From positions 1 to 13,801 of the forward strand of contig JAKALZ010000015.1 of NCBI GenBank assembly GCA_021813065.1: a stretch of DNA of 13,801 nt, in the 5' to 3' direction. Below are positions 2 through 3,030 of the stretch, piece by piece; the first letter of the stretch is position 1; each line of letters begins with the position of its first letter. The stretch comes from a bacterium. GTDB taxonomy: Bacteria; Spirochaetota; Spirochaetia; Treponematales; Rectinemataceae. A program made the position numbers and the translations under genes. Below the pieces are notes generated by a model. The model had not been told where the DNA came from. It did not search any database and worked only from the letters and a program-made list of their open reading frames with translations.

Positions 2-289
2 CCCGCCAAGGGCCAATTTCAGATCAACTACAATGAAGGGTTCCAGCAATGCGAGTATATTCCCGATTTTGTAGCGGAAACCCGCCACGCCATCTATATG
101 GCCGAGACCAAAGCGCGAAATGAACTCAACGACCCCATCGTGCGGGAAAAAAAGAAAGCCGCCGAGCTGTGGTGCTGCCGTGCGACGGAGTTCAATAAAA
201 ACCTCGGGAAGAAACCATGGAAATATCTTCTAATCGCGCACGATCAGGTCCAGGAGAATATGAGCCTCGAGGCGTTTGCGCAATTGTGA
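2..289 (+). CDS. Type III-like restriction endonuclease / helicase, C-terminal end (partial)
   Basis: The gene enters from the left edge; the reading frame is open from base 2 to a TGA at 287-289, giving the last 95 residues. The visible part resembles the C-terminal nuclease domain of Res-subunit/BPTD_3080-type restriction helicases. A PDF motif (about visible residue 21-23) is followed by MAETKA, which fits the D...ExK pattern of a PD-(D/E)XK nuclease. The block KKAAELWCCRA and the near-terminal KPWKYLLIAHDQV are typical of the end of these proteins. The DEAD/DEAH helicase domains would lie outside the window. In the family such proteins cut or process unmodified foreign DNA in the cytoplasm. 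No partner methylase is visible here. The gene ends just before two toxin-antitoxin modules, which fits a defence-type neighbourhood. The family call is by motif recall and the exact subfamily is uncertain. Confidence 0.75.
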   Translation, partial: PAKGQFQINYNEGFQQCEYIPDFVAETRHAIYMAETKARNELNDPIVREKKKAAELWCCRATEFNKNLGKKPWKYLLIAHDQVQENMSLEAFAQL

Positions 290-344: not shown

Positions 345-686
345 CTACTTTAGTATTACTTCGATTTTTTCAATGATTTCCTGGAGCTTAGCGCTATCGA
401 TCTTCTCTATGAACTCGATATTTCTCTCTGTCCAATCGAGACTCTTTATTTGATCGCTCAATACGGCTCCCAGAATCAAACCCGATGGTATCTCAACCTC
501 AAAGGGATAGCCCTTTACTTTGCTCGTGATCGGACAGAAAAGCCCTAGCCCTATTTTTTCATTATACGCCTTGAATGACAACGTTAAAGCTGGCCGTCTT
601 CCCCGCTGTTCATGCCCCAGCTGCGGATTGAAATCGAGCCACACAATATCCCCGCGCTCAGGCACATACTCCTTATTGCCTACCAT
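345..686 (-). CDS. mazF: MazF-family toxin, endoribonuclease
   Basis: This is a 113-residue MazF/PemK toxin, close to the usual 110-115 residues. In the family it cleaves mRNA at short sequence motifs when released from the MazE antitoxin. The N-terminal RGDIVWLDFNP block, the EQRGRRPALTLS loop and the CPITSKVKGYPFEV strand are all present. R31 and T54 occupy the positions of E. coli MazF R29 and T52, so the toxin looks catalytically intact. The block AVLSDQIKSLDW also matches the family. The ATG at 686 overlaps the end of mazE by 7 bp (GCATGGTAG), indicating translational coupling. The gene runs convergent to the restriction gene that ends at 289. Identification is firm; the RNA target sequence cannot be read from the gene. 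Confidence 0.93.
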   Translation of the reverse strand: MVGNKEYVPERGDIVWLDFNPQLGHEQRGRRPALTLSFKAYNEKIGLGLFCPITSKVKGYPFEVEIPSGLILGAVLSDQIKSLDWTERNIEFIEKIDSAKLQEIIEKIEVILK

Positions 687-913
687 GCCTCTTTCCCCAC
701 CGAAGAGCCAGAATCAATATAGTCCTGCATATTTTCTTGGGTGACTTCAGAGAGAAGACCTTCGAGTGTCGGTTTCGGTGGAAGAATGATAATTTTCCCA
801 CTATCCTTTACAATATCCACAAACACGCCATTCTTGAGGTCCAGCTCTTTTGCGTATACCGCGGGTATCCGGATTCCAAGGCTGTTGCCCCATTTCTGAA
901 CAATGGCTTTCAT
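680..913 (-). CDS. mazE: MazE-family antitoxin (AbrB-like DNA-binding domain)
   Basis: The ATG at 913 is chosen because GGAG lies 6 bases upstream and MKAIVQKWGNSLGIRIP is the canonical MazE opening; the longer open frame back to 976 runs through the promoter. The protein has 77 residues. Residues 1-45 form the swapped-hairpin AbrB/MazE DNA-binding fold that dimerises and represses its own promoter. The acidic tail (about residues 48-77, LEGLLSEVTQENMQ then VGKEAW) is the flexible segment that wraps around and neutralises MazF in this family. It is the first gene of a two-gene operon with mazF. A near-consensus promoter and overlapping palindromes sit directly upstream, fitting tight autoregulation. 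Confidence 0.92.
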   Translation of the reverse strand: MKAIVQKWGNSLGIRIPAVYAKELDLKNGVFVDIVKDSGKIIILPPKPTLEGLLSEVTQENMQDYIDSGSSVGKEAW

Positions 914-923
914 AACATTCTCC

Positions 924-961
924 ATACTTAAAGTATATACTTTGTATATTTGTGGTGTCAA
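924..961 (-). promoter_or_regulatory. mazEF promoter with overlapping palindromic operator
   Basis: On the minus strand TTGACA (961-956) is followed after 18 bases by TATACT (937-932), a near-consensus sigma-70 promoter. Over the -10 element lies a perfect 14-bp palindrome, AAAGTATATACTTT (930-943). Its left half also pairs with ATACTT (924-929) around a single base, so one shared arm can form either of two palindromes. This resembles the 'alternating palindrome' described for E. coli mazEF. Transcription would begin close to the GGAG at 923-920, leaving a very short leader. The operator role is inferred. Confidence 0.75.
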
Positions 962-1030
962 GCTACAGAGTAGCAAAAATGAAAAAGCAACTCGGATAGC
1001 ATCGGTTTACGAAATACGCCTATCATTTAT

Positions 1031-1075
1031 ATTGAGCCAATTTCAAAAGTCTGTTGCTTTTGAAATTGGCTCAAT
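1031..1075 (-). terminator. 19-bp perfect inverted repeat, probable terminator of the TAC operon
   Basis: Bases 1031-1049 are perfectly complementary to 1057-1075, with a 7-base loop (1050-1056). The hairpin begins 7 bases past the stop codon of the SecB-like gene on the minus strand and lies 70 bases before the mazEF promoter. It therefore most simply ends the TAC transcript and insulates mazEF. The following minus-strand sequence is A/T-rich but lacks a clean T-run. It could equally be a processing or stability hairpin, or a small palindromic repeat. Confidence 0.6.
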
Positions 1076-1081
1076 TAAAAG

Positions 1082-1522
1082 TTATAGAACCCACGGCAAA
1101 GTCACTGGGCTTAGTCCAAGGCGACTCATGCCATCGTGAATGTGTTGACGTAACAATGGCCAGAGTGTTTTTTGGATCTGCTGTTCCATGAAGGCTTTTC
1201 GAAGGTCTTCCTCAGCCCAGAGCTGTTCATAGGCTTCTGCGTTAATGACTTTGAAGCTGATAATGAATTTCGAAGTATGCTCAAAGATTATCGACCCGTT
1301 GAATTTGATATTGAATTCATACTTCGGACGAAACACTTTTATTTCAAGTTGCGACGCTATCGGATCTCCTTTGGCGAAGGCATATCTCCACTCAAGTTGG
1401 AGTCCGCTTCCTTGAGGTGGTGTAGAACCAGACGCCTTTGAGTGAAGCTCCATAGGACGAATATCTTGAAGCTGAATTGTATGAAGAAAGCTCGTAAAAC
1501 GCTCGTTGATATCGCCACTCAT
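1082..1522 (-). CDS. SecB-like chaperone of a toxin-antitoxin-chaperone module
   Basis: The start at 1522 (MSGDINERF) is preferred over the longer open frame from 1594. Its ATG overlaps the antitoxin stop in an ATGA, and a GGGGG run lies about 6 bases upstream. The product is 146 residues, near the ~155 of housekeeping SecB. The central alternating hydrophobic strands (about residues 40-95), the QLWAEEDLR segment and the C-terminal block KTLWPLLRQHIHDGMSRLGL, which ends in PVTLPWVL, match the SecB fold. The tail is like SecB proteins linked to TA operons. In such TAC systems (M. tuberculosis Rv1957, Geobacter MqsRA-SecB) the chaperone binds a C-terminal region of the antitoxin, prevents its aggregation and proteolysis, and allows toxin control. 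Position as third gene, after toxin and antitoxin, supports that role. Use in general secretion is possible but less likely. Confidence 0.82.
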   Translation of the reverse strand: MSGDINERFTSFLHTIQLQDIRPMELHSKASGSTPPQGSGLQLEWRYAFAKGDPIASQLEIKVFRPKYEFNIKFNGSIIFEHTSKFIISFKVINAEAYEQLWAEEDLRKAFMEQQIQKTLWPLLRQHIHDGMSRLGLSPVTLPWVL

Positions 1523-2229
1523 CCGGCTACCCCCAATGCAGAATTCACTAGCACAGAAGCGCCAGGTATTTGCCTTGTCGTTCCGCTTGTCCACTGGGCC
1601 TCGGCGTAAAGCCGCGAGTAATCCTGGAAAGATTCACATCCTACATAGCGAGCGATTTGTTCCGACACCGGCAGACCATTCTGGCCCGCACAGACTTCGA
1701 TTTTCTCACGCTGAAGCGCTGTCAAGGAGGCCGAAAGCGCTTCGAGGCCATCCCATTCCATCGCGGACCGAAAAGCCTCGGAGGCCTCGATTCGCTGACG
1801 CTGGAGAGCACCGATTCTGTTCTTGTTGATGCTATACATCTCTTTGAAGATATATGGCTTGGCCGCGAGCTTGAGAAGAAGGCGGTTTGTCGAATCGGGC
1901 GACGAGCCACTCTCATAACTGTTCATCGTGAGCTTGCCGAAACCGAGAATAATGCTGAAAGCCTTCTGGCTGGCGCCGTAGCGAGTGCGGAGCGCGACCA
2001 GCTCTTCAGGCTTCGGTGATTCGTAGAGACGGGCATAGGCCTCGCGGGCCGCGGCGAGGTTCGCGTCGAGCTGACCTGGCGCCTCGAATTCCTCGCCGCA
2101 GGTCATGCAGCGAGAAAATTGAGCGGTGAAAGGCACTTCTCTGCCATGTATCGTCACCTTCTCTTCGCGTTCGACAATGTCGACATCACGGGTTGTGCCG
2201 CAGCGGGGACACGGTAGTTGCTTAGTCAT
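1519..2229 (-). CDS. Extended MqsA-family antitoxin, zinc finger plus HTH
   Basis: The ATG at 2229 (MTKQLPCPRCG) is chosen because AAGGA lies a few bases upstream inside the toxin's last codons; an in-frame ATG at 2244 is an alternative. The protein has 236 residues, against about 131 in E. coli MqsA. Cysteines C7, C10, C41 and C44 form two CxxC pairs with the same 31-residue separation as E. coli MqsA C3/C6/C37/C40, so a structural zinc site is expected. Residues about 75-121 form an XRE-type HTH (SQKAF, NSYESG), the likely operator-binding part. Residues 122-236 have no counterpart in E. coli MqsA. They include an aromatic cluster F201, Y204, Y208, W213 and are a candidate chaperone-addiction segment recognised by the SecB-like neighbour. 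The recognition-helix residues differ from E. coli N97/R101. It overlaps the toxin by 8 bp and the chaperone by 4 bp. Confidence 0.85.
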   Translation of the reverse strand: MTKQLPCPRCGTTRDVDIVEREEKVTIHGREVPFTAQFSRCMTCGEEFEAPGQLDANLAAAREAYARLYESPKPEELVALRTRYGASQKAFSIILGFGKLTMNSYESGSSPDSTNRLLLKLAAKPYIFKEMYSINKNRIGALQRQRIEASEAFRSAMEWDGLEALSASLTALQREKIEVCAGQNGLPVSEQIARYVGCESFQDYSRLYAEAQWTSGTTRQIPGASVLVNSALGVAG

Positions 2230-2584
2230 AATTTCCTTCATCATGAAAAGACATCACCACACCGGCATCGCCATTGATGTCGGTCCATATCTTCAGTTTG
2301 ATATACAAAAGTATGGTATCCTTTCGTGGAGCCTGGCGTCTGTATGGGAAAAAGAACACCATGACTTCTCCGGGAGAGCAATCCTCATCTGGCTCTGGCC
2401 CTTGATGGTAGTGTTCAGGCTTCAGCTTTGCGACAATGTCATAGACATCTTCCTCAGAAAGCCCTTCCTCCAGCAAAAATGCCATTGTCTTGCGCCAGTT
2501 GCGCGGTTTGAATCCAAGCTTTCCTGCTGCTAGAAGTGGTGTAAGGCGCCTGAGAAAAAGCGGGGCCGCCAAAAGCCTGTCCAT
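2222..2584 (-). CDS. MqsR-family toxin (RelE-fold mRNA interferase)
   Basis: This is a 120-residue protein, first gene of the TAC operon; GGAG sits 8 bases before the ATG at 2584. The match to MqsR rests on the helical segment LSEEDVYDIVAKLKPEHYHQGP, split here as residues 42-59 and 60-63, and on the C-terminal strands LLYIKLKIW and VVMSFHDE. Y94-I-K96 aligns with E. coli MqsR Y81-L-K83, and SFHDE with its SFKEK end. The E. coli K56 position appears to be H60 or Q61, so the active site is partly altered. Family members cleave mRNA and are held inactive by MqsA. Like E. coli mqsRA, and unlike mazEF, the toxin gene comes first. The stop codon lies within the antitoxin start region. Divergence from E. 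coli MqsR is considerable; family confidence comes from motifs plus neighbours. Confidence 0.78.
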   Translation of the reverse strand: MDRLLAAPLFLRRLTPLLAAGKLGFKPRNWRKTMAFLLEEGLSEEDVYDIVAKLKPEHYHQGPEPDEDCSPGEVMVFFFPYRRQAPRKDTILLYIKLKIWTDINGDAGVVMSFHDEGNYD

Positions 2585-2603
2585 TAAATATACTCCCTAT
2601 TTC

Positions 2604-2626
2604 GGTATTGCGCAATACCAATTATA
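2604..2626 (-). promoter_or_regulatory. TAC operon promoter and 16-bp palindromic operator
   Basis: A consensus TATAAT (2626-2621, minus strand) is followed at once by a perfect 16-bp palindrome, GGTATTGCGCAATACC (2604-2619). The palindrome would span the transcription start, and the ribosome site and ATG at 2584 follow. No good -35 box is seen in the A-rich sequence upstream. The placement is that of an autoregulatory operator for the HTH antitoxin, alone or with MqsR. The sequence differs from the AACCT/AGGTT operator of E. coli mqsRA. Binding is inferred. Confidence 0.7.
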
Positions 2627-2701
2627 TTGTTGATTTTATTTTTTCCTCTTCAGGATGTCATCGAACAATCGCATCGTCAATGCAGAGAACCATAGGCCGC
2701 C

Positions 2702-3030
2702 ATGAATATACTGGAAGAAATCCGACATGGCGCTTTAACTTTTGAATATTCTTGCATAAAAACCGGTAAACATATCGTACCGGAGGAAACGCCTTCGCCT
2801 GGGAAGCTCATCATCTTCGCCTTCCAGCAACTCTTGGTCATGTTTCCAGCGACTGTGACGGTCGCGCTGCTTACGGGTTTCTAAGTGTCGACCACGATTT
2901 TCGCGAGCGGGCTCGCGACGATCGCGTTCCGACCATTCTCTTTTCGGTGTACCTGAAAGGGGTCTGTGGCCAGCTGCCGATTCTCTTCGGGAACCTCGTC
3001 GGCTACGCAGTGAGCGTTCCTCTAAGGTCG
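2702..3030 (+). pseudogene. Decayed uracil/xanthine permease (NCS2 family) fragment
   Basis: Translated fragments in two frames resemble NCS2 permeases such as UraA. The segment from about 2784 (PSPGKLIIFAFQQLLVMF, then PATVTVALLTGF) is a first membrane helix of this family, interrupted by a TAA at 2882-2884. The same frame continues with VSTTIFASGLATIAF, which is the expected next segment. A shifted frame from about 2947 gives YLKGVCGQLPILFGNLVGYAV, here read as YLKGVCGQLPILF plus GNLVGYAV, a motif normally several helices further on. So the gene has lost its C-terminal part and an internal segment, and it carries a nonsense change and a frameshift. The ATG at 2702 may not be original, since the 22-bp repeat (2743-2764) lies in the apparent N-terminus. 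No functional product is expected. Confidence 0.72.
2743..2764 (+). repeat. 22-bp perfect direct repeat, copy 2
   Basis: This copy is identical to 287-308 and lies near the 5' end of the permease remnant. It marks the right boundary of the block holding both toxin-antitoxin modules. Flanking bases outside the 22 bp differ (AG follows copy 1, GG follows copy 2). Confidence 0.85.

Follow-up and report, generated by a model that had tools for sequence, protein, structure and literature searches.

The window, by which we mean the whole 13,801-nt stretch analysed here (positions 1-13801 of contig C272, from a 2.01 Mb assembly in 325 contigs that is 69.8% complete), carries a three-gene operon that is very probably a genuine MqsRAC-type toxin-antitoxin-chaperone (TAC) module, acting by the mechanism proposed below. 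We found members of the three families with their predicted folds, a conserved gene order and operator, purifying selection on the genes, an antitoxin extension whose occurrence is coupled to that of the chaperone, and a conserved C-terminal motif. The operon comprises the following features:

2604-2619, no strand: operator palindrome GGTATTGCGCAATACC, probable autorepression site
2222-2584, minus strand: MqsR-family toxin, 120 aa
1519-2229, minus strand: MqsA-family antitoxin, 236 aa from the ATG at 2229, with a CxxC/CxxC zinc finger, a helix-turn-helix and a C-terminal extension
1522-1770, minus strand: candidate chaperone-addiction (ChAD) extension, antitoxin residues 154-236, about 80 aa beyond the helix-turn-helix
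1522-1530, minus strand: candidate ClpX-type degron at the antitoxin C-terminus, VAG in the window and xA[A/S] in most relatives
1082-1522, minus strand: SecB-like TAC chaperone, 146 aa
1031-1075, no strand: hairpin 3' of the chaperone gene, copy of the dispersed genomic repeat GAGCCAATTTCAAAAG...

The three minus-strand open reading frames were found where the initial annotation had placed them, and its assignments to the MqsR, MqsA and SecB-like families all stand. The overlaps it had described, 8 nt between toxin and antitoxin and 4 nt (ATGA) between antitoxin and chaperone, were verified and are conserved in relatives; an alternative in-frame ATG at 2244 would lengthen the antitoxin to 241 aa. 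Its guess of a spirochaetal lineage was borne out, and a genome of the same genus, G414, carries a related TAC locus (L058, apparently the same as L002, from a "Spirochaetales bacterium" MAG). The toxin-antitoxin-chaperone order was kept in 9/9 public loci where all three genes are visible, while a tenth locus, L001, begins within the antitoxin and stands outside this count. With overlapping genes in this order, a type II toxin-antitoxin pair and a SecB-like chaperone form one operon, as is characteristic of a TAC, and the three genes are presumably co-transcribed. pN was lower than pS in all 24 comparisons (6 pairs, 4 segments each), which indicates that the frames are under purifying selection, and this conservation suggests that the TAC is functional.

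The antitoxin matched the MqsA profile TIGR03830 over residues 7-131 (77.3 bits, cut-off 61.8), confirming the proposed zinc-finger family, and scored below the cut-off with PF15731 (24.6 bits, cut-off 30). Cysteines C7, C10, C41 and C44 make up the CxxC/CxxC arrangement that, together with the helix-turn-helix, is typical of MqsA. The toxin did not reach the cut-off of PF15723, the profile by which the initial annotation expected it to be recognised (16.4 bits, cut-off 26.2). Its predicted structure has the MqsR fold (VIA-align), and Y94 and K96 align with Y81 and K83 of E. coli MqsR in a loose alignment; we take Y81 to be a catalytic residue of the E. coli protein. An hhalign comparison between E. 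coli MqsR and the aligned toxins was of no use (probability 0.9), and a sequence search of solved structures with the toxin returned irrelevant matches only.

Placement of the 1082-1522 product in the SecB family, as claimed by the initial annotation, failed by PF02556, which gave no match at E up to 10, but was upheld by predicted fold and by profile-profile comparison. Structure prediction of the monomer indicated a SecB-like fold, closest among solved structures to 5mtw (Rv1957), with about 20% identity between the two chaperones. The comparison set for hhalign consisted of 16 of 20 spirochaetal PF02556 matches (one below cut-off) and E. coli SecB. Against this set, the probability was 94.8 with 6 distant family members and 86.3 with 38 sequences, whereas 120 column shuffles gave no more than 1.3 and the reversed control less than 1; it was 30.7 with the narrow alignment A1, and broadened profiles scored less than 1 against E. 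coli SecB alone. Sequence searches of solved structures yielded a weak match to Rv1957 (E 1.1) with the chaperone alone and none with the A1 profile. Since the chaperone is invisible to PF02556, TAC counts using this profile will miss the spirochaetal family. Searches of plasmid and phage collections gave no match to the chaperone, and PHROGs gave one, to a family of unknown function (E 1.7e-4). One relative, L070, lies on an IMG/VR contig; regulators and a member of a phage-type endonuclease family are among the genes flanking it.

The chaperone family is modular: it is coupled to MqsRA pairs and also, as newly found here, to HigBA-like pairs. Related chaperones follow RelE/HigB-like and XRE-type genes in L017, L020, L021, L022, L068 and L069, pairs that were named by eye from their sequences rather than by profile. 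Orphan SecB-like chaperones with no recognisable toxin-antitoxin pair were seen in L016 (genome G206) and in L066 (G398, of the window's genus), and may be remnants or export chaperones. These orphans, the absence of any PF02556 protein at E 0.001 from the window's genome (69.8% complete) and the ability of the M. tuberculosis TA-associated SecB to substitute for E. coli SecB in vivo (PMC6377645) would suit a protein that mainly serves export in place of SecB and lies near toxin genes only secondarily. We regard this as highly improbable, because PF02556 is absent from 376/392 genomes of the phylum, so that its absence here is no sign of replacement, the family is patchy (A1 in 11/392 genomes of the phylum, the broader A4 in 19/390 of the order), and most copies examined directly follow an antitoxin.

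The relation of the chaperone to the antitoxin was followed in an alignment of 16 antitoxins, 12 chaperone-linked and 4 chaperone-less (L027, L030, L031, L032). The extension of about 80 residues is present in 12/12 chaperone-linked antitoxins and in 0/2 of the nearest chaperone-less ones, L027 and L030, which stop at 157 and 159 aa; the more distant L031 and L032 have different tails. Long antitoxins outside this alignment are those of L065 (232 aa) and L070 (239 aa), and the decayed locus L067 has a chaperone, no toxin in view and an antitoxin of just 195 aa. Judged by sequence, the extension looks as a chaperone-addiction region would and is a candidate for one. At L027, L030, L031 and L032, relatives of the toxin and antitoxin occur with no chaperone, which could also mean an ordinary two-gene MqsRA pair, with an antitoxin independent of the third gene and the latter a co-transcribed passenger. 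The missing extension in the two nearest chaperone-less antitoxins, the conserved gene overlaps, the purifying selection on the chaperone and the occurrence of its relatives behind unrelated HigBA-like pairs all argue against a passenger, which we consider very unlikely. In genome G283, the MqsA-type antitoxin of L032 is 334 aa long and has a long C-terminal domain, which presumably resembles the SocA/Panacea type.

Conservation of the antitoxin C-terminus was assessed among the best 120 of 207 homologues, using the 102 of at least 230 aa, window included; these are database records lacking genomic context, so chaperone linkage is not part of the count. Alanine occupies position -2 in 96 of the 102, and the final residue is serine in 65 and alanine in 33. 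Entropy in the same sequences was 0.36 bits at -2 and 1.18 at -1, compared to 2.2-3.8 bits at -30 to -3. The 18 shorter homologues excluded from the count have alanine at -2 in 6 cases, and most end differently. HigA-like antitoxins preceding related chaperones end in LAS (L017), LAA (L020, L068), IAA (L021) and LCA (L022), and departures from the motif are AKI in the HigA-like L069 and QPA (L065) and HAI (L070) in MqsA-type antitoxins. The tmRNA tag of the host genome ends in LAA, as does CmdA, which is degraded by ClpP (PMC11618068), and the last Val-Ala of HigA1 is, according to a review, a ClpX signal (PMC8165232). The family C-terminus resembles a ClpX degron and is a candidate for one. 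As the VAG end of the window's antitoxin is off the family pattern xA[A/S] and an exception in its family, we infer the degron at family level.

The last antitoxin codons in many loci seem to double as the ribosome-binding site of the chaperone gene, which could shape the antitoxin C-terminus. The motif was kept where a separate ribosome-binding site was seen (L020, L021) and in L008/L009, and the alanine codons at -2 differ in their third base. This variation and the persistence of the motif argue against a mere by-product of the ribosome-binding site, which is unlikely to be the whole cause.

The palindrome that the initial annotation saw before the operon is present and exceeds chance expectation. 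GGTATT-N4-RATACC lies 35-38 nt upstream of the toxin start in 12/12 loci, among them the near-duplicate pairs L008/L009 and L018/L019, with R being A in 8 and G in 4. By analogy, the window's GGTATT-N4-AATACC is a probable autorepression site. A sigma-70-like site at 2661-2633 was one of 4 found versus 1.9 expected and was not relied upon. The single terminal hairpin described downstream is real (about 1031-1075, -26.5 kcal/mol, z = -10.4), but its role as terminator is not borne out: it has no T-run, and a terminator scan of 800-3000 gave 0 sites. Its 17-nt arm has 19 matches in the genome with at most 2 mismatches, the window's own two arms included, compared to 0 for the reversed control. 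The seven exact-match loci examined comprise that of the window, five that extend into a longer shared stretch, and L079 with a palindrome like the window's; copies of the repeat were seen in L072-L075, L078 and L079. The many arm copies and longer shared stretches imply that the hairpin is a copy of a dispersed repeat and not evidently the operon's terminator.

In the mechanism that we propose, the MqsA-type antitoxin of growing cells would bind the MqsR-type RNase toxin and repress the operon at the GGTATT-N4-AATACC palindrome. Its extension of about 80 residues would need the SecB-like chaperone for folding and for shielding from ClpXP, the signal for which would be the small-residue C-terminus. 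Were the chaperone taken away, as happens in CmdTAC by a phage capsid protein, the antitoxin would be degraded, the toxin would cut mRNA and growth would stop. This follows the published TAC model of a ChAD antitoxin, a dedicated SecB-like chaperone, turnover by ClpXP and toxin release upon chaperone titration (PMC5105189, PMC6377645, PMC8165232, PMC11618068), which fits what was computed here save for the VAG end, the departures from the C-terminal motif and L067. RNase activity, autorepression, chaperone dependence, ClpXP degradation and phage triggering are ascribed to the window's operon by analogy with these relatives, and homology together with the neighbouring defence genes suggests that it may have an anti-phage role.

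Among known systems, MqsRAC of E. coli C496_10 shares the MqsR toxin, MqsA antitoxin and SecB-like chaperone; there, toxicity is rescued only by MqsA plus MqsC, and the system is an anti-phage TAC that protects against T2 and acts with McrBC restriction (PMC9519451, PMC10783111). As far as it is described, it differs from the present operon, which is spirochaetal, has a chaperone beyond the reach of PF02556 and has relatives with directly adjoining restriction-modification (R-M) genes. The initial annotation had cited an MqsRA TAC of Geobacter beside the M. tuberculosis system; the former is incorrect, since PMC5105189 gives the Geobacter lovleyi system as a HigBA TAC and the MqsRA TAC as that of Vibrio cholerae RC385. 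In the Vibrio system, MqsRA occurs together with a SecB-like chaperone, and the antitoxin was shown to depend on the chaperone through a C-terminal extension, the ChAD being described as residues 136-176, about 41 aa, compared to about 80 aa here (PMC5105189). HigBA-Rv1957 of M. tuberculosis provides the closest solved chaperone fold and has a C-terminal antitoxin extension with the ClpX degron at its very end (PMC6377645, PMC8165232), whereas its toxin-antitoxin pair is HigB/HigA instead of MqsR/MqsA. CmdTAC of E. coli ECOR22 likewise has a SecB-like chaperone and an antitoxin that ends in a small-residue degron and is degraded by ClpP, but by description its toxin is an mRNA ADP-ribosyltransferase and its antitoxin has a pair of N-terminal helices plus a long stretch without structure, unlike here (PMC11618068). 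The TAC modules, recognised as an anti-phage class only lately and investigated in few organisms, gain a spirochaetal family here. This family allows natural comparisons: toxins and antitoxins of one kind occur either with the extension and the chaperone or lacking them, and one chaperone family accompanies two toxin-antitoxin families.

TACs of this clade cluster with R-M genes, a linkage that is new here. The comparison of flanking regions covered 13 loci of the MqsRA type, namely the window, L001/L098 (whose toxin is truncated by the contig), L002, L003/L101, L004/L100, L005, L006/L099, L008/L097, L009, L010, L018/L083, L019/L084 and L065/L087. L007 (contig stops 360 nt past the chaperone), L070 (not scanned for R-M genes) and the decayed L067 were left out. 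Eight R-M proteins served as tblastn queries against all 13 flanks, and selected neighbouring ORFs were run against Pfam. In 6/13 loci an R-M gene starts, by longest-ORF start, 19-93 nt 3' of the chaperone on the same strand: HsdM in L002 (seen in the copy L081), HsdR then HsdS in L005, and type III Mod then Res in L006, L008, L009 and L010. A further 3/13 have an above-cut-off R-M gene within 8 kb, namely Eco57I-type methylases in L004, L018 and L019, one of which ends about 100 nt upstream of the toxin in both L018 and L019; PADLOC classes the large Eco57I-type methylases as type IIG. L001 has an AAA ATPase nearby, together with an end that weakly resembles Mod, and L003 and L065 showed no R-M gene by tblastn of the flanks and Pfam on selected ORFs. 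Although L010 is assigned to Syntrophobacterales, its Res shares 97% identity with a spirochaetal one, which points to transfer or a binning error.

As a control, the 77 matches to PF02384 and PF01555 in 11 genomes with 12 TACs were merged to 73 places. Of the 12 TACs, 8 have a DNA methylase within 8 kb versus 0.39 expected, and 6 have one within 2 kb versus 0.10. The corresponding probability, about 1e-10, presupposes that loci are independent and evenly spread. This does not hold, because the R-M genes of L006, L008, L009 and L010 are homologous to one another and defence genes cluster. The TACs of G000, G426, G063 and G593 have no methylase within 8 kb, while the sole PF02384 match of G414 and the sole PF01555 match of G342 each lie beside a TAC. 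HigBA-type loci showed the same trend in L086, amid HsdM, HsdS and HsdR, and in L088 with GmrSD; at L085 an HNH endonuclease and a fragment of HsdM were seen, L089 showed no such trend, L082 gave no R-M match by tblastn alone, and the contig of L022 is too short for the comparison. The two orphan-chaperone loci gave no R-M match. Of four chaperone-less MqsRA loci, only L095 lies inside an hsd operon, a type I R-M operon whose hsdS and hsdR genes have the pair inserted between them (L095 5070-11989).

The R-M genes that adjoin the TAC in many relatives, the mosaic divergence of the locus described below and the relative on an IMG/VR contig could mean that the TAC is selected mainly for keeping an adjacent R-M or mobile island in the genome by addiction, rather than for phage sensing. 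R-M genes and toxin-antitoxin pairs both cluster in defence islands anyway, which detracts from this interpretation. Moreover, two TACs that have already been tested act against phage (PMC9519451, PMC11618068). Selection by addiction, which is compatible with the MqsRAC mechanism preferred here, is possible, though we rate it rather unlikely. A further, tentative idea, to which we give somewhat less than even chances, is that the TAC is a built-in R-M partner: mqsR, mqsA, the chaperone gene and mod-res or hsdR/hsdS/hsdM would form one transcription unit that moves and recombines as a cassette, with restriction as first line and, for phage that evades it, chaperone-sensed toxin release as second, and the chaperone as a general adaptor for MqsRA and HigBA. 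Among the matches listed from the open literature, no title or abstract opening describes a TAC from spirochaetes or one linked to R-M genes. That R-M genes of types I, IIG and III recur so close to the TAC lends the reported cooperation of MqsRAC with restriction a testable genetic form, and both the divergent chaperone and the R-M neighbourhood deserve follow-up.

Divergence from L002 varied along the locus, with a dS of 0.09 in the toxin gene, 0.40 in the antitoxin gene and 2.1 in the chaperone gene, compared to 0.80 in the neighbouring ftsK. Window positions 2586-3023 match pieces of L002 (3036-3628, 3891-3933 and 5467-5523) that belong to a permease gene upstream of the TAC (Pfam), the operator region and 57 nt before hsdM. 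This suggests that the locus was probably shared with G414 and rearranged, the matches being probable traces of a rearranged shared island. A sharp recombination breakpoint between window and L002 was rejected since similarity declines gradually, so that we claim a mosaic history and no more; a single pair with a single baseline gene falls short of proving cassette exchange. Synonymous divergence was lowest in the toxin gene in 4/6 pairs. Separately, an antisense ORF of about 135-144 aa was seen opposite the toxin gene in several loci. Low divergence and antisense ORF may reflect either recombination or constraint.

Three further genes of the window lie downstream of the TAC:

680-913, minus strand: MazE-like antitoxin of a second, separate toxin-antitoxin pair, PF04014 36.9 bits, cut-off 24.7 (scanned as 680-910)
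345-686, minus strand: MazF toxin of this second pair, PF02452 90.7 bits, NF007386 120.6 bits, cut-off 120
2-289, plus strand: possible C-terminal end of a type III Res, cut by the contig edge, by similarity to the Res of L010

PADLOC gave no match for any of five window proteins tried. The ORF at 2-289 is 36% identical over 47 aa to the C-terminus of the L010 Res (E 8e-6 among 17 sequences) and scored 20.8 bits with PF08722, below the cut-off of 26.5; this cut ORF with its one local match hints weakly at an R-M linkage of the window's own. The TAC is followed immediately, on its own strand, by the MazE/MazF pair (345-913).
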